The position numbers and the translations under genes are program-made. From Aptenodytes patagonicus (lineage: Eukaryota; Chordata; Aves; Sphenisciformes; Spheniscidae), in the NCBI RefSeq assembly GCF_965638725.1, contig NC_134958.1, positions 15,193,464 through 15,257,463 on the forward strand: a stretch of DNA of 64,000 bases. Reading direction: 5' to 3'. The notes beneath the pieces were generated by a model that did no database searches, was not told where the DNA came from, and worked only from the letters and a program-made list of their open reading frames with translations. Every line of letters starts with the position of its first letter. The stretch's first letter is position 1. This document shows positions 37,431 through 57,190 of the stretch, in pieces.

Positions 37431-39041
<1,611 letters not shown>

Positions 39042-41740: not shown

Positions 41741-43452
41741 AGGTACTGCCCTGCCCGCGCCCCTGCCCGCACCCCTGCCCCTGCTTGTGCCCATCGCCCT
41801 CTGCCCGTACCCCCGGCGACGTGCCCCTGCCCATGTTCCCCCACCCCTGCCTGTGCCCCTGCCCTTACCTGTGCCCCCCTGCCCGTGCCCCTGCCTGTGC
41901 CCCTGCCCTTACCTGTGCCCCCCTGCCCGTGCCCCTGCCATGCCCCACAGAACCCCAGGCAGGGCTGCAACTGTACCTCTCCCGTGCACCCCCCATCCCC
42001 CCCCGTGCTGCACCAGGAGATGTTCCCAGCCCTGGCCCTGTGCCTGGTAGTGCCCACCTCAGAGCCAGTACTGGGATGTGCCCACAGCGGCCATAGGAGC
42101 CCCTGACCCAGCCATCAGGGCTGTCTCCCTGTCCAGGCACCCCACCTGAGCTCTGGGCACCCCACCTGAGCTGCAGGCACCAGAGGACACAGCTTCCCCT
42201 GGGGCTCTCCCAGCCCGGGCCCCTGTCCCATGGCGGGCAGCCATGGGCATGGCGCCTGCTCGCTGAGGGCACGGCTGTGCACACAGGCATGGGGCCAGGC
42301 AGAGCTGCTCCCTCCAGGGTGGAAGGCTCTCGCCATGCGTTTCAGCAGGTGTCGCCTGCATCTCCTTGTGCAGGTGATCACCGGGGGACACTACGACGTA
42401 GACTGCTATGTGGAGGACCCCAATGGCAGGATGATCTACAAGGAGACCAAGAAGCAGTACGACAGCTTCCCGCACCGCACTGAAGTCAAGGGCGTCTACA
42501 CCTTCTGCTTCAGCAACGAGTTCTCCACCTTCTCCCACAAAACCGTCTACTTCGACTTCCAGGTGGGCGATGAGCCACCGATCCTGCCCGACATGAGCAA
42601 CCGTGTCACTGCCCTGACACAGGTGGGTCACTGCATGCTGCCACGGGAGGAAGGTCATGCCGTAGCTCCCGCTTGTGGCCAAACAGCCCCACAGGATGGC
42701 AGTTAGGGGCTTGTCCACCTTCCCCTCTGCCAAATGCAGAAGTGCCAACTGCCAGCCAACCGCTCTGCTGTGTGCAGGCCACGTACTCCTCCCAGCAGCA
42801 TGGGCAGAGAGGGACAGGGAGGGCTGCTCTGGGTCTGAACCTCCCCCCAGCCTGAGCACCCAGTTTCCATCCCGCACAAGGGAAGTGCAGCAAAGCTTTT
42901 CCATCCCTTGGTGTGAGCGCACAGGGATGGCTGCACCCTGGGCTGGGACCCAGACCCTGCCCTTGGCCCCCAGCGCCTCAGCAGGTCTCTCAGTTGTGCC
43001 ACAGTGCTCACAGCAGGCTCCATCCACCAGCCAGTCTCCAGCGTTGCCCCTTTGAGCAGAACCGCTCTTGGGTCGGGGTTGGCAGAGACCCAGCAGCACA
43101 GGGCGCTGCTGTCCTGCTCTCGGGTGCCCCAGCACAGTCCTCAGCTCCCTCGGCCACAAGTGCCAGGCCCGAGCTGTGCTGCGTCAGGAGTAATGGAGCA
43201 TGCTTGTCTCCCCAGATGGAGTCCGCCTGCATCACCATCCACGAGGCTCTGAACACGGTGATCGACTCCCAGACTCACTACCGCCTGCGGGAAGCGCAGG
43301 ACCGGAGCAGAGCTGAAGACCTCAACGGACGGGTCTCGTACTGGTCGGTCGGGGAAACCCTCATCCTCTTTGTGGTCAGCATTGGGCAAGTGATGCTGCT
43401 TAAAAGCTTCTTCACCGAGAAGAGACCCGGCAGCAGTAGTGCCAGCACCTAA
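41575..43452 (+). CDS. TMED3: TMED3, p24-family (gamma) cargo receptor of the early secretory pathway
   Basis: Three coding exons at 41,575-41,742, 42,374-42,622 and 43,216-43,452, each with GT/AG borders, give 217 residues, the same length as human TMED3. In order: a signal peptide ([16 protein letters not shown]), a GOLD domain ([18 protein letters not shown] to [16 protein letters not shown]), a helical stalk ([36 protein letters not shown]), a membrane helix ([16 protein letters not shown]) and a cytosolic tail KSFFTEKRP. The tail has the FF motif known to engage COPII/COPI and a basic pair typical of p24 proteins. The protein is expected to cycle between ER, ERGIC and cis-Golgi as part of p24 complexes. 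Three in-frame ATGs open the frame because a 12-base unit is duplicated. The third, MLALAV, gives the most typical signal peptide, so the real start could be 41,587 or 41,599. Confidence 0.96.
41745..41950. repeat. CCCCTGCCxGTG minisatellite in TMED3 intron 1
   Basis: A degenerate pyrimidine-rich array of GCCCCTGCC(C/T)GTG words. A cleaner 44-base duplication is marked by CCTTACCTGTGCCCC at 41,863 and 41,907. It lies wholly within the intron. Confidence 0.7.
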
Positions 43453-50261: not shown

Positions 50262-50267
50262 TTTATT
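50262..50267 (-). terminator. Poly(A) signal of MESP1
   Basis: TTTATT on the plus strand (AATAAA on the minus strand), about 200 bases after the MESP1 stop codon. Confidence 0.75.
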
Positions 50268-50460: not shown

Positions 50461-51863
50461 TCAGTCCTGGGGCTGCGGCGGAAGCAGAGCCTCCAAGAGA
50501 GAGAGCAGGTCTGCGGAGAGGTCCTGGGAGGAGCAGAGGGTGGGTGAGATGGTAACCGGCCAGGGCAGGGGTCCAGGGCAGGGCCAGGGTCTCGGGGGGT
50601 GCAGGAACGGGGCTGACGGAGCCCACCTGCCAGGAGGACTCCCGGTCAGGGACAAGCAGGACCATGGCCTCAGGTCTGCCCCAGCTGATGGGACCTCAAC
50701 AAACACGAGGGAGGGTGGCACCAGGGAGGATTGGAGCAGGCTGAGGGATCCACATGCACCCACTGCAGGGAGGAGGGGGGACACCTCTCCGTTCCCACCC
50801 CCAGACAAAGTTGTTGTTACCCCAAAACCAGTCCCCGCACTGCCCCAAGCCAAAGGGACTCTGAGTGCACTGGGGGGGTTGAGCCCTGCCCCATGCCAGC
50901 CCCATGCTGGGGGCCACCTGGGCTCACCCCAACCCCTGCCAGCGCACGTACCTGGGTGACTGTCCCTGCATCCACGAACTCCGGCAACATCAGCCCCGCG
51001 TCCAGGAGGGGGTCGCCGGGGAGGTCCGGGGGGGCCCCTGCCCCTGCACAGTGAGGAGGGGACAGCCAGGAGGACACATTGGAGGCGACAGCCTCATGCA
51101 GCTCCAGGGGGGTCCCCGTCACAGGGATGTAGGGGGGCGACTCCCAGGCCCCCGTCCCCATGTCAGGAACCCCAAGCACCTCTGGGAGGTTCCCCGCAGC
51201 AGGGCCACAGGGGGGTGACCCCCAGGCCCCTGTCCCCATGCCAGGAGCCCCGTACAGCTCCGGGGAGGTCCCCACCGTGGGAGGTGACCCCCAGCCCACA
51301 GTGCTGGGGGGCGAAGCATCCCGTGGGGCCGGGGCTGGTGGGTGCAGGCAGGGATCCGGGATCTGGCAGCACCCCAGGCCCTGGGGGCAGAGGGGGCAGT
51401 GCCAGGGGGCCGCCCCCCATCGCTGGGCCAGCGCCTCCTCGCTGAGCCCCAGCAGGGCTGAGAGATGGGCGATGTAGCGGATGGCGAGGCGCAGGGTCTC
51501 GATCTTGGTGAGGCTCTGCCCCGCAGGTGCCAGCGCGGGTGGCAGGTAGTGCCGCAGCCGCAGCAGTGCCTGCGCCAGCCGCCGCATCCGCAGTTTCTCC
51601 CGCTCGCTGGCGCTCTGCCGCGAGCCTCCTGGCCCTGGGCCCCGGACCCCCTTCCTGCCCCCGGGGCCACCCCGCAGGCGGGGGGCGGCGGGGCCGCGGC
51701 AGGGTCCCCGGGCAGCAGCAGGGGACGAGAGGCCGCAAGAGTCGGGCGAGGATGCAGGCGAGCTGCTGCTGTAGCCCTCGAGGTCTGGGGGTCCATGGCA
51801 GCCCCAGTCCTGCAGCAGGGCCGTGGCGGGGAGCGGGAGGCCGGGGGCTGTCGAGTGGGCCAT
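50461..51863 (-). CDS. MESP1: MESP1-type mesoderm posterior bHLH transcription factor
   Basis: Two minus-strand exons, 51,863-50,952 and 50,523-50,461, joined in phase 0, encode 324 residues. The N-terminal 80 residues are Ser/Pro/Gly-rich. A bHLH domain follows at about 83-140 ([18 protein letters not shown], then [20 protein letters not shown]), very close to human MESP1. After it comes the Mesp-family CPXCP motif as CPLCP (about 156-160), then Gly/Pro-rich repeats of about 25 residues containing GTGAWGSPP. The short last exon ends in [11 protein letters not shown], which resembles the acidic LLETWMPL end of human MESP1. The family binds E-boxes as bHLH dimers in the nucleus and specifies early mesoderm, cardiac progenitors and somite boundaries. 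It is divergent from MESP2 at the right and upstream of ANPEP, matching human order, which is why MESP1 was chosen. A TATA-like box and a T-box half-site lie 40-65 bases before the ATG. Confidence 0.93.
51085..51625 (-). repeat. Left arm of the MESP1/MESP2 inverted repeat
   Basis: The bHLH and repeat-coding part of MESP1 is a near copy, in opposite orientation, of 55,990-56,540 in MESP2. Over roughly 195 bases of the bHLH (51,421-51,616) I count two mismatches. Similarity falls off towards the 3' side of the exon. Flanking coding DNA on both sides is dissimilar. Confidence 0.88.
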
Positions 51864-51903
51864 GGCTGTGGGGCCGTGTGCCGCCGTCCCACAGCTGCCC
51901 CGG

Positions 51904-51927
51904 CTTTATGCAGGGCTGGAGGTGTGA
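51904..51927 (-). promoter_or_regulatory. MESP1 core promoter: TATA-like box with adjacent T-box half-site
   Basis: On the minus strand TCACACCT (51,920-51,927), the T-box half-site, is followed by CCAGCCCT and GCATAAAG (TATA-like, CATAAAG at 51,904-51,910). The start codon is about 40 bases further. The same arrangement precedes MESP2. Tbx6 control of Mesp2 is established in mouse, so this is a plausible Tbx6 site. Confidence 0.6.
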
Positions 51928-52760
51928 AGTGGCACCTTCGTGGCCGGCATCAGCACCACTTCAAAGGCGGGGGGGGGCCGAGGGCAGCCAGCTTTGAACA
52001 CGCGGGTGACGAATTTTACCCCAGCGGTGTGAGGCCGCTCTGTGCTGCCCACCCCCCGGCATCCTTCACTCCCCGCACCATCCTGAGGATGGGGCTTGGG
52101 CCCCATGTGGGGGCCGTAGTGGGGGCTGCAGTGGGGGCTGCAATGAGGCTGGCAGCGGGGTTTGTAGCAGGGCCTTTATCGCGGTCTGCAGCAGGGTCTG
52201 CAGTGGGGTGCGAGCTGCAGCAGTGCCAGCTCTGGGTGACCATGTTCCCCACTACACAGCGTGGCCCCAGCCTGGCAGCAGCACGGCTCCGGCCGGGCAT
52301 ACCCGGTGCCCAGCGTGGCTCTGCGGGACACCGACCCCCGCGCCCCGTGCCGGGGGGGAGGGCACGGCCCACCCTCCCGCGGCAGGTCTCCCGCAGCCCC
52401 CGCTAATGGCGTTTCACACGCTGCCCCTAATGAGCCCGGCCGCCCGCTGAGCCCCGGCGCGGAGCCGCGGCCGCAGCCCGGTGCCAGCGGCTGCCGCGGG
52501 TGCGGTGACCCCCGCGGGGGGGGGGGGCGGGCGGGGCGGGGCTGGGAGGGGCCCCCCCGCCGCGTTCCCAGGCCCCGCAGGTGTCGGTGCCGGCGGGTGC
52601 GAAGGTTTCCAGGGAAACCCGGCCCCGCCGCGGGAAGGAAAACCCATCAGGGAGCGAGCGGGGGGGGCCGGGGCACCGCCCCCGGCACCGGCACGGCCCC
52701 CCCGGCAGCACGGCCCGCCCCGCAGCGCGGCCCCGCGGTGCCTCGGGGTACATGACCCCC
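51928..52760. promoter_or_regulatory. MESP intergenic region: degenerate repeats and CpG island
   Basis: From 52,090 to 52,210 there are degenerate GTGGGGGCTGCA-type repeats of about 15 bases. From about 52,300 to 52,760 a strong CpG island follows, with GC boxes and a partly palindromic GGTTTCCAGGGAAACC near 52,605. No coding exon is seen. It may act as a shared control region of the two divergent MESP genes, and the island could mark an additional start site. Confidence 0.45.
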
Positions 52761-52764
52761 ACAC

Positions 52765-53245
52765 GGCAATGTGCACAGCCCCGGGGGTACGGTGGTGGGC
52801 ACGGGACCCCCCCCATACCGGGTGTGCACAGCCCCGGGGGTACAGCGGTGGGCACGGGAACCCCCCCCATACCGGGTGTGCAGAGCCCCGGGGGTACAGC
52901 GGTGGGCACGGGAACCCCCCCCATACCGGGTGTGCACAGCCCCGGGGGTACAGCGGTGGGCACGGGAACCCCCCCCATACCGGGTGTGCAGAGCCCCGGG
53001 GGTACAGCGGTGGGCACGGGAACCCCCCCCATACCGGGTGTGCAGAGCCCCGGGGGTACAGCGGTGGGCACGGGAACCCCCCCCATACCGGGTGTGCACA
53101 GCCCCGGGGGTACAGCGGTGGGCACGGGAACCCCCCCCATACCGGGTGTGCAGAGCCCCGGGGGTACAGCAGTGGGCACGGGAAACCCCCCCCCCATACC
53201 GGGTGTGCACAGCCCCGGGGGTACAGCAGTGGGCACAGGCTCCCC
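52765..53245. repeat. 54-bp GC-rich minisatellite, about nine copies
   Basis: A clean tandem array with a 54-base period, measured at 52,823, 52,877, 52,931, 52,985, 53,039, 53,093 and 53,147, with a last unit of 57. Each unit has GTGTGCA(C/G)AGCCCCGGGG, GTACAGCGGTGGGCACGGGA and a C-run with CATACCGG. Copies vary by C or G in GCA(C/G)AG in the order C,G,C,G,G,C,G,C. Because 54 is a multiple of three, long frames stay open on both strands. These are not genes. Confidence 0.95.
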
Positions 53246-55690
53246 CAGTATCAGGTATCAGCCACCGAGCTGGGCAGGGGGCACAGGGCCGGCTGTGGGG
53301 CACGGAGCTGGGCACAGGGCACGGCGCCAGCAGTGGGGTGCAGGGCTGGCCCCTCCCCAGGGAAGTGCTGGTGACACGGCGGGTGAGCCAGCGCCTCATT
53401 GCTCATGGGCTCGTGTTTCCCAGTGGCCACATGAGAAGCTTGTTCAGTTTTCCTTGGCAATGCCATGACACGAGGTGATGAGATAAACCCTGCTTATTGC
53501 TCACCACCGGCCAAGCACTCCTGCCGTCCTCGCCGTGCTTGACGGAGCCGGGCACACTGCTCGGCCCTGCGGCAGCCCCGGGTGCCCGAGCCCTGCGGGG
53601 AGCCTGGGCAGGGGCATCGCTAGCATTTCAAAGCCCCATTGTCGGGTGTCGCAGGGTCCTGGGCATCCAGCGGTGCAGGGGCCGCAGGGACTAGGTGCTC
53701 CCCTGCCGCAGTCCCTTCCTGCCACCAAGCATGCCATGGCACCCAGCCCTGGTGCTGCTCAGAGCCATGTGTACCCCAAGGCATCACCCCTGCAGCCCAG
53801 CCCCCAGCCAAGCCGTGTTCCCAGTACCCACACCACCTGCCAGGCACTGTGAGGATTTTGGTATCTAAACTGGCCATTATCTCCCTGCAGACATTGCAGA
53901 CATGGCGCAAAAACGCCAGAGTTAATTGCTAACAATCCCCTCTGCCCTCTTGCTGGAGGAAGTGCTGTGCCGCTGCCCCGTCCAAGGTCCAAGGCTGCCG
54001 GTGCCAACCTGGACCTGCAGCACATCTCTGGGTGCACAGACGTCTGACGCCATCCCTGAGCCCACCTCTGGGGCTGAGGGCTGCAGCAGGGGTCCGACGG
54101 CAGCCTGGCCCCGAGAGCGTGGCAGGATGCTCTGCGGGGTACTCTGCACCCGACAGCACAGCCTGGGGCACGGACCCTTCCCCGCGCACCCCTCACCGCT
54201 GCCCTGGCCCCGCTCCCCCCCATTCCCAGGCCCCCTCCTGGTTCTCATTAACTGATGAGCTCCCGGGTAATGAGTTCTGCGGCCCTGCCGGGCAGCCGCT
54301 TCCCACTTCCCTCTGTGTTTAGACAAGTGCTGGAGCATGGCTGGGCCGTGACAGTGCTGGCCGTGGGGTCAGAGCCCACCTGGGGGAGAGCCCACAGCCC
54401 CTCACTCCTCAGGGGAGATGGAGTCCCCCCACATCCCTCCTGTCCGTGTTGATGGAGGGTGGGCACAGGGCCATGGGGTGGACGTGGCGAGGGCACTGGG
54501 AGAGCTACAGGGCCTCCTGACGGTGCTGCCGGCCAAAGCTGGCCAAAGCCTTCCCCAGGCATTTGGTGCCCGGCTCAGACCCGTGCCCCCAGGAGCAGCC
54601 AGCCCTCCCGCTGAGGGGGTCCTGCCAGGCACTGCTGGGGGCCCTCCCCAGGACACCTTGCTGCCTACCTCGGACCTGCCACCCCTGCTCTGGCACCTCC
54701 TGGGTGTCAGATGTCTGCATGGCTCCCAGACGTGGCTGTGCACTCTTGTACCTCCAGCTGGGACGGGGATGGCTGGCAGGGATAGTGCCCAGAGGCTGTG
54801 CACAGCCCAGCAGAGCACGCCGCAAAAGCATCCCAGCAAATGGCCCTCTCCAGCCAGGAGCATTGCCCACCCCGAGCTGGGTGAGCAGCTGCCTCCCCTC
54901 TGCTTCTGCTGCTTCCCCCAGCCCACATGCGCAGGCAGGGTACCCTGCCCTGGAGCCTCCTAAAGGGCTTAGCACCCCAGCATGGTGCTGCCCGCTGCCT
55001 CCAGGACCCCGACCCCGGGTCTGGGGTTTGCACCAGCTAGACAAGCAGCACAGGAAGCCTCAGCTCCATGCAGAGGGGCACAGCCTGATGGGTCCCCACA
55101 AACACACAGGCTGTGCCTCCAGCTTCCCCAGAGCATGCCAGGAGCTCAGAGCTGGGGCTGCATCCCACGGGGTCAGGGAGACCGAGGCAGCACGGCCAGG
55201 TGAAGGGACATCACCCAGAAAAGGAGCACACTGGTCCCACCACCAGTGCACCAGCCTGGCTGCTGCTTCCCGGCATCCCCCTGCCCTCAAGGGGGTTGGC
55301 TGGAGCCGGGGGCACACCCAGGATCCCCAGCCCTCAGGCTGGGAGCTGTGCAGAGGGCAGGGGAGGTGTGGGGACACTGTTGGGTGTCAGGGCTGGCTGC
55401 TCAGGGTCCTGGCACTGAAAGGTCAAGTCCCCACTGCCCCCTGCAGCGCAGCCAGCCTGGCAGAGCCGTCATGAGGGACAGTGCAGGCTCTGGCAGAGCT
55501 GGTCAGCACGTTAGCATCTCTCATGGCCGTGTGAATTGGTCCCTGCACACTTCCCAGCACCAGGCAGCACCAATTAAGGGCCAGAGGAGTCAGAACTGAC
55601 ACCTCTGCAAATGGGCCTGGTATTCCCAGGCTCCCAGCCGGCCCCAGCCCAGCTCTGTAGGTTTTAACACCTCCAGGCGGTCACAAAGCT
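53246..55690. other. MESP2-proximal intergenic DNA
   Basis: No gene was found. Short AT-rich islands at about 53,850-53,940 (GGTATCTAAACTGGCCATTATC, AGAGTTAATTGCTAACAAT), 54,245-54,280 (CTCATTAACTGATGAG) and 55,520-55,580 (GAATTGGTCCC, CACCAATTAAGGG) could be MESP enhancers. The open frames around 54,400-55,480 have no recognisable domain. Confidence 0.45.
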
Positions 55691-55696
55691 GTCGCC

Positions 55697-55719
55697 TCAC
55701 ACCCCAGCCCCGCATAAAG
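55697..55719 (+). promoter_or_regulatory. MESP2 core promoter: TATA-like box with T-box-like site
   Basis: TCACACC (55,697-55,703), then CCAGCCCC and GCATAAAG (CATAAAG at 55,713-55,719), about 52 bases before the MESP2 ATG. The element aligns with the one before MESP1: TCACACC, CCAGCCC, GCATAAAG, CGGGGC. An additional AACACCT lies at about 55,667. Confidence 0.6.
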
Positions 55720-55770
55720 ACGGGGCTGCCCAGGCACCCCCAGACACGGGCAGCAGAGCGGACCCCAGCC

Positions 55771-57092
55771 ATGGCCGGACCCCCAGCCCCACTCCTGCCC
55801 CAGGGCCTCCAGCCCTCAGCAGGCTGTGCTCTGCTCTGGGACCAGGCTGGGGCCCTTGCCAATGCTACTTCCCCAACCCCTTCTGTGAAGCCCCCCGGCG
55901 CGTCCCCATGTCCCCCACGGGGCTGGCGGCCAGGGGCCAGGGGGTGGCAGGGTAATGGGGGCGAGTCAGGGCGGTGTGGGGGACCAGGGGGCCTGCGGCA
56001 GAGCGCCAGCAAGCGGGAGAAACTGCGGATGCGGCGGCTGGCGCAGGCACTGCTGCGGCTGCGGCACTACCTGCCACCCGCGCTGGCACCTGTGGGGCAG
56101 AGCCTCACCAAGATCGAGACCCTGCGCCTCGCCATCCGCTACATCGCCCATCTCTCAGCCCTGCTGGGGCTCAGCGAGGAGGCGCTGGCCCAGCGACGGG
56201 GGGCAGCCCCCCGGCACTGCTCCCTCTGCCCCCAAGGCCTGGGGTGCTGCCAGCCCCTGGACCCCTGCCTGCACCCATCAGCCCCGGCCCCACAGGATGC
56301 TTCGCCCCCCGGCACTGTGGGCTGGGGGTCACCTCCCATGGTGGGGACCCCCCTGGAGCTGTACGGGGCTCCTGGCATGGGGACAGGGGCCTGGGGGTCA
56401 CCCCCCTGTGGCCCCACTGTGGGAACTCCCCCAGAGGTGCTTGGGGTTCCTGATATGGGGACGGGGGCCTGGGGGTCGCCCCCCTACATGCCTGCAGTGG
56501 GGACCCCCTCGGAGCTGCACAGGACCCCTGGCTCTGTCTCAGGGTCCTGGTCATCACCACCATACAGCCTCGGAGCAGTGACCCCGCTGGAGCCCCCCCG
56601 GCGACGTGCCATGGCCACAAGCACTGGGACGGCTTCCTCCTGCTGCTTGGAGCCTGCAGCCCCGCACCAGCCTCCCGGGGCAGGAATGACGGACACAGGG
56701 CCCCCTGGGACCCCGGCGCGAAGCTCCCAGCTGCCTGCGCATCGCCAGGTATGTATGGCCCCCTCCCCAGCCCAGCCCCTGCTCCCGCACGAAGGGGGCA
56801 GGGGGTGGATGGTCCTTGCTGGGTGCGGGCAGGGCTGCACCAGCAAAGCCACCTGCATGCCATGGCTGGGGTGTCCGCTTGGGCTGGGGGGCACAGTATG
56901 ATTCATGCTGAGCCAGAGAGCCATCCCCGGGTGTGTGGGGCACAGCCGCCCCACGGCCGCTCACCTAACACAGCTCTTTCTGTACAGCTCGGCAGCCCAC
57001 CGGCCCTGGACAGGCTTATCTCCCCGTCCCCCCGTGCAGCCCCCGTCCTGCCCAGCTGTGCCCCGGCATGGCACTGGGGGTGGCAGAGCTGA
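55771..57092 (+). CDS. MESP2: MESP2-type mesoderm posterior bHLH transcription factor
   Basis: Two exons, 55,771-56,748 and 56,988-57,092, joined in phase 0, encode 360 residues. The first ~76 residues are Pro/Gly-rich and unlike MESP1. The bHLH (about 77-132) starts [18 protein letters not shown] and is otherwise almost identical to MESP1. The CPXCP motif is altered to CSLCP. Four related segments of about 25 residues follow ([20 protein letters not shown] and its variants). The last exon, starting LGSPPALDRLISPSP, lacks the [10 protein letters not shown] ending of MESP1. The expected role is nuclear E-box binding in the anterior presomitic mesoderm, setting somite polarity and boundaries under Tbx6/Notch. 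It is named by position, next to ANPEP and divergent from MESP1 as in human. Because the two genes share converted sequence, naming by similarity would be unsafe. Confidence 0.92.
55990..56540 (+). repeat. Right arm of the MESP1/MESP2 inverted repeat
   Basis: Partner of the arm at 51,085-51,625, separated by about 4.4 kb. The DNA match includes third-codon positions, which a purely protein-level constraint would not preserve so well. Confidence 0.88.
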
Positions 57093-57184: not shown

Positions 57185-57190
57185 ATTAAA
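57185..57190 (+). terminator. Poly(A) signal of MESP2
   Basis: ATTAAA about 95 bases after the MESP2 stop codon. It is the first plausible signal and gives a very short 3' UTR. Confidence 0.6.

Follow-up and report, generated by a model that had tools for sequence, protein, structure and literature searches.

A near-identical inverted block in a head-to-head MESP gene pair of Aptenodytes patagonicus as the probable product of recent gene conversion

Introduction

MESP1, a heart gene, and MESP2, a somite gene, are paralogues with a near-identical DNA-binding domain of the basic helix-loop-helix (bHLH) type and with different roles, according to the passages of PMC4506290 on these genes. The same passages describe the mouse and human genes as lying head to head, with almost identical bHLH domains (93% at the amino acid level in mouse) and with a C-terminal region that is unique to Mesp2. 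In therians, MESP1, MESP2, and ANPEP stand in a row on the right of WDR93, as given in the part of PMC10445033 that treats this neighbourhood, and the term “gene conversion” appears there in the section on WDR93. Here we analysed such a pair in a window of the Aptenodytes patagonicus genome, that is, a whole stretch of 64,000 nucleotides (C10:15193464-15257463, contig NC_134958.1 of the 1.35-Gb assembly GCF_965638725.1). Two oppositely oriented bHLH genes, named A (MESP1-like) and B (MESP2-like), lie head to head in the window and share a nearly identical block of coding DNA, which is very probably explained by recent gene conversion between them, judging from the sequence.

In the Mesp rows of the bHLH survey PMC2862960, the bHLH domains of chicken Mesp1 and Mesp2 did not pair one to one with the human genes, and the rows named “pMesp” suggest further MESP-family genes in chicken. 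The two Xenopus Mesp bHLH domains were likewise placed without one-to-one grouping with the human genes in the comparison given in PMC3842043. Searches of an open-licence library turned up no paper that links MESP, in birds or mammals, with gene conversion. Intrachromosomal gene conversion acts between inverted paralogues, for example in the palindromes of sex chromosomes. The MESP pair would add a new locus to this established mechanism, and its interest lies in the two genes themselves and in the possibility that crossovers in the block exchange their promoters.

Results

Self-BLAST of the window gave a sole long inverted match between gene A (51097..51635, minus strand; window positions are used throughout unless a chromosome is named) and gene B (55981..56519, plus strand). 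The two arms of 539 bp aligned without any gap and with 37 mismatches (93.1% identity). Transitions accounted for 34 of the 37 differences, which fits a recent divergence of the block. The longest identical run was 103 bp. Permuting all 645 aligned columns 20,000 times never gave a run of this length, whereas permuting the columns of the block alone did so in 236 of 20,000 trials. In the genome search, which leaves out simple repeats and very common words, the full-length block was found only at A and B, and the two further matches were stretches of 45-51 bp inside other bHLH genes, which fits badly with a third copy as the donor.

The synonymous divergence changed stepwise along exon 1. The bHLH domain of 67 codons (51420..51620 on the minus strand in A and 55996..56196 on the plus strand in B) differed at 2 of 201 bases, both nonsynonymous, and at none of the 58.7 synonymous sites. 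In the 107 block codons 3' of the bHLH, the proportions of differing synonymous (pS) and nonsynonymous (pN) sites were 0.096 and 0.097, corresponding to equal synonymous (dS) and nonsynonymous (dN) divergences of 0.10, whereas the 36 codons that follow the block had a pS of 0.65 (dS 1.5) and a pN of 0.47. Since dN equals dS in the part after the bHLH, the low divergence there reflects recency and not constraint on the protein. The codons past the block still match in register, so that one exon moves from near-identity to saturation, and on the 3' side a sharply bounded block of low divergence lies within related, saturated sequence. The five block codons upstream of the bHLH had already diverged, with 4 of 15 bases differing. 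An earlier note on this DNA had put the bHLH difference at two of about 195 bases with identical synonymous sites, had described the block as nearly identical and inverted, and had proposed recent gene conversion with the synonymous divergence along the exon as the check. Our counts agree with that description, and the profile was stepped rather than uniform (0, 0.10, and 1.5), which strongly supports the proposal.

The two bHLH differences are located in B at 56011 (E>K) and 56093 (A>V), and both fall on CpG dinucleotides in A and on none in B. The gene L063, which we take to be MSGN1-like, has E at the first site, and B therefore carries the derived state. This position is one residue ahead of the conserved R-E pair, and in the alignment with solved bHLH structures the five rows have A, S, V, or M there. 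B was also considered as a dead or dominant-negative factor that had lost the glutamate contacting the E-box, and this idea was dropped because the E>K site is another residue; the change gives no reason to assume that B fails to bind DNA.

None of 59 synonymous sites differed in the bHLH and 8 or 9 of 89 differed elsewhere in the block (Fisher P = 0.02 or 0.01), which fits a younger tract over the bHLH nested in an older, longer tract. With a neutral rate in birds of about 2e-9 per site per year, the dS of 0.10 would correspond roughly to 25 million years, and the bHLH would be younger than about 13 million years.

Both genes contained four W-x-S-P-P units at matching places, three of them within the block, and the units there are encoded by 78-bp repeats at 51099-51273 and 56365-56508. 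Identity between like-numbered units of A and B fell stepwise outward, from 94% to 90%, 83%, and 56% for units 1 to 4, the fourth units lying outside the block at 51015..51086 (A, minus strand) and 56530..56601 (B, plus strand). The similarity reaches through the repeats, as the earlier note had claimed, up to the third unit. Homogenisation of the repeats within each gene was ruled out for units 1-3, whose identity between A and B was 0.83-0.94 and within one gene at most 0.75.

Past the block, the 3' ends of exon 1 matched in register at 52 of 108 bases, compared with 31.5 in codon shuffles (P = 5e-5), and the first 20 codons matched at 28 of 60 bases (P = 0.0015); in free local alignment of this stretch, 2 of 300 shuffles scored equally well. 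By contrast, no similarity was detectable between the N-terminal coding parts (45 of 300 shuffles as good) or between the regions of intron, exon 2, and 3' sequence (111 of 300). The flanks had been called unrelated in the earlier note, which held for the N-termini and the last exons and failed for the 3' ends of exon 1. A tract of low synonymous divergence with a boundary, as expected for a gene-converted pair, was seen at the 3' boundary only.

The spacer between the arms (51636..55980, 4345 bp) contains the promoters and N-terminal coding parts of both genes as well as a minisatellite, and when the entire window was searched for inverted matches, none was listed inside the spacer. The minisatellite has a 54-bp unit in 8.6 copies with 96% matches at 52770-53236, between A and B. 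Long palindromes have kilobase arms and a short spacer; with arms of 539 bp around 4345 bp, the term palindrome arms used earlier does not suit this locus.

The 400-bp promoters of A (51864..52263, minus strand) and B (55371..55770, plus strand) are related, with a local alignment z score of 5.8 that was matched by 0 of 300 shuffles; the earlier note makes no mention of them. Common to both is a CATAAAG box, at -47 from the ATG in A and at -58 in B, preceded by TCACACC. The motif scan placed TCACACC of A at -64 and -169 (51921-51927 and 52026-52032, minus strand), and TCACACC and TGACACC of B at -74 and -174 (55697-55703 and 55597-55603, plus strand), so that two such motifs stand 5' of each gene at similar distances, and B has an extra reversed copy, GGTGTCA, at -388. 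These motifs resemble T-box half-sites. TBX6 regulates Mesp2.

As a control, the best 60 of the 83 bHLH matches in the genome were compared pairwise, and this scope applies to all results of the comparison. Of the 103 pairs that reached 60% identity, the MESP pair shared 50 of 50 degenerate codons and a pair on C33 and C34 shared 52 of 52, three genes on C19 shared 89-96%, and all remaining pairs shared at most 86%. In the 43 pairs with at least 75% amino acid identity, pS was 0 for the MESP pair (0 of 46 sites) and for the C33/C34 pair (0 of 37), 0.09, 0.11, and 0.19 for the C19 trio, and 0.17 to 1.05 for the others, in which the pairs that we take to be NEUROG-like ranged from 0.17 upward. 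We assume the C19 trio to be HES5-like and the C33/C34 pair to be TCF4-like. No MESP-like or MSGN1-like gene was seen beyond A, B, and L063, and the further MESP-family genes hinted at by chicken “pMesp” were not seen in this genome either in this comparison or in the block search. MESP relatives were absent from the 37 pattern matches in viral contigs and from the 465 in prokaryote contigs.

The bHLH exon copies of the HES5-like trio are located at C19:8100952-8101107 (minus strand, L059), 8110315-8110470 (minus strand, L057), and 8124192-8124347 (plus strand, L054). They are 93-96% identical, with more than 100 bp identical in all three, and their flanks gave no alignment; the trio may be a second bHLH cluster with exchange among its members. 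The TCF4-like bHLH exons at C33:1574918 and C34:1569742 (L061 and L062) were identical at 717 of 762 bases and lie at near-equal coordinates of two large contigs, and these are perhaps W and Z copies.

Gene A extends over 50461-51863 on the minus strand and encodes 324 amino acids in a joined frame of two exons. Its exon 1 (50952..51863) is an open frame from the ATG at 51863 to the donor CAG/GTACGT, and its exon 2 with the stop (50461..50523) follows a predicted acceptor CTCCTCCCAG/GACC, with the poly(A) signal AATAAA at 50267. Gene B extends over 55771-57092 on the plus strand and encodes 360 amino acids, also in two exons, with exon 1 (55771..56748) open up to the donor CAG/GTATGT and exon 2 with the stop (56988..57092) after the predicted acceptor TACAG/CTCGG, followed by the poly(A) signal ATTAAA at 57185. 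All the splice sites were predicted from sequence. Both genes reach further than the 51085..56540 given in the earlier note, and their start codons are separated by 3.9 kb.

The PF00010 HLH domain was found in both proteins (E = 9.6e-13 in A and 8.2e-12 in B). An aminopeptidase N gene (Peptidase_M1) on the minus strand downstream of B gives the order MESP1-MESP2-ANPEP, because of which A is called MESP1-like and B MESP2-like. A head-to-head pair adjoining ANPEP is what the MESP family is expected to show, as are kinship with mesogenin and a loop that is long relative to those of MyoD and NeuroD. Gene A is 62% identical to L063, the basic region SEREKLRMR occurred outside A and B only in L063 among the best 60 matches, and in the structure-based alignment the loop of B holds residues that NeuroD1 and MyoD lack. 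A CPxCP motif downstream of the bHLH is a trait of the MESP family, and the motif is CPLCP in A and CSLCP in B, which deviates at the first proline. Elsewhere in the window, an ankyrin-repeat frame of 536 codons lies at 37431-39038 and an EMP24/GOLD domain gene at about 42170-42700, both on the plus strand; we take the former to be ANKRD34-like and the latter TMED-like.

Discussion

The MESP1/MESP2 pair looks older than birds, because the therian gene order and the head-to-head arrangement of the mouse and human genes are shared. In such an old pair, the promoters, the N-termini, the 3' ends of exon 1, and the last exons would have diverged to or near saturation, while non-reciprocal recombination between the inverted copies would have copied the bHLH-plus-repeat segment of one gene over that of the other. 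Remaining similarity would be needed for pairing, and for this reason the tract may end where homology has worn away, namely in the low-complexity stretch 5' of the bHLH and, on the 3' side, within the repeat series. We infer at least two events, of which that over the bHLH was the latest, and conversion may be ongoing, as the earlier note holds, or repeated. Purifying selection on the shared DNA-binding domain probably helps the block to stay similar enough for renewed conversion.

Conversion rather than crossover appears to have homogenised the block. The inverted bHLH block could be a long-lived point of exchange, at which a crossover flips the 4.3-kb spacer and swaps the promoter and the N-terminus with the frames intact; we consider this improbable. 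If it were true, the 5' half of what is called one gene might have a history other than that of its 3' half, in birds and perhaps in amniotes generally, and evolution might bring together new pairings of expression domain and C-terminal activity.

It is very unlikely that there was no exchange and that purifying selection on the bHLH together with GC-rich codon bias preserved the likeness of two old copies. The bHLH is the most conserved part, the GC content at third codon positions (GC3) is 0.88 there in A and B alike, and NEUROG-like pairs whose GC3 approaches 1.0 retain as many as 86% of their codons. Nevertheless, 142 of the 150 degenerate codons for the same residue in the block were identical, compared with 72.3 expected from codon usage (P = 1e-39) and 81.2 from the block's own usage (P = 4e-32). 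Neither does constraint show past the bHLH, where dN and dS are the same, and the pS of other bHLH paralogue pairs was at least 0.17 except in the C33/C34 pair and the HES5-like trio.

A one-off inverted insertion or partial duplication of the segment into a gene previously without it would agree with N-terminal parts and last exons lacking detectable similarity and with fourth repeat units that are not specially close. Yet the promoters are related, the codons past the block are in register, and the two-exon layout and the four repeat units occupy the same places in both genes, from which A and B look like full-length relatives beforehand, and we regard such an insertion as highly improbable.

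That only two MESP-like copies were seen in the genome would suit a whole gene that was recently duplicated in inverted orientation within the bird lineage and then diverged very fast outside the block, but an about fifteen-fold difference in synonymous rate would then be needed between neighbouring codons of one exon, and mouse and human have the head-to-head order too in the account of PMC4506290, which leaves this explanation barely credible. A collapsed or chimeric assembly arm, conceivable since misjoining is possible at inverted repeats and judged less likely already in the earlier note, has next to no probability in view of the 37 scattered differences, the different flanks, the open frames in both genes, and the genome search, in which no third copy or haplotype contig matched the block.

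Several points weigh against recent and repeated conversion of an old pair. WDR93 of sauropsids has other right-hand neighbours in the part of PMC10445033 on this gene, so the neighbourhood is incompletely conserved. In the relevant tree of PMC3212526, the bHLH of panda Mesp1 grouped with that of mouse Mesp1 in two of three analyses (values 99, 78, and n/m*), contrary to repeated conversion in mammals; the chicken, Xenopus, and panda groupings are relevant to repeated conversion in amniotes but are no test of it. GC-rich codon bias alone makes as many as 38 of 44 codons match in other pairs. At the 3' boundary, the first 12 codons past the block matched at 14 of 36 bases, which was not significant (P = 0.12), and the fourth units of A and B (0.56) were no closer than unit 4 of B was to unit 3 of B (0.57) or of A (0.58), indicating a shared repeat layout and not strict one-to-one descent of unit 4. 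There was no detectable homology between A and B 5' of the block. Exonic constraint at the DNA level, with no second event, could explain why the bHLH has diverged less than the rest of the block. The direction of conversion was not resolved by the GC/AT differences (20 versus 16), and the 14 CpG transitions in the block, of which 10 have the CpG in A and 4 have it in B, give no direction.

If conversion keeps rewriting the bHLH, the sameness of the domain would be no evidence of slow evolution, trees of the bHLH could mislead on MESP1/MESP2 orthology, and the functional differences would need to stem from the promoters and the unconverted ends. Conversion may also account for the failed one-to-one match of the chicken and human Mesp genes in the survey rows of PMC2862960.

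The mammalian Mesp1/Mesp2 pair resembles A and B in its head-to-head order and almost identical bHLH, but its genes are separated by about 25 kb (human) or 16 kb (mouse), compared with 3.9 kb between the starts here. In the HES5-like trio the bHLH exon is likewise near-identical with flanks that do not align, whereas the block there is largely one exon, and its boundary may be the edge of constraint. Conversion in sex-chromosome palindromes, a known system, shares with A and B the local homogenisation of nearby inverted copies; unlike in these palindromes, just a coding block of 539 bp was homogenised in A and B, and the spacer, the promoters, and the gene ends were spared.

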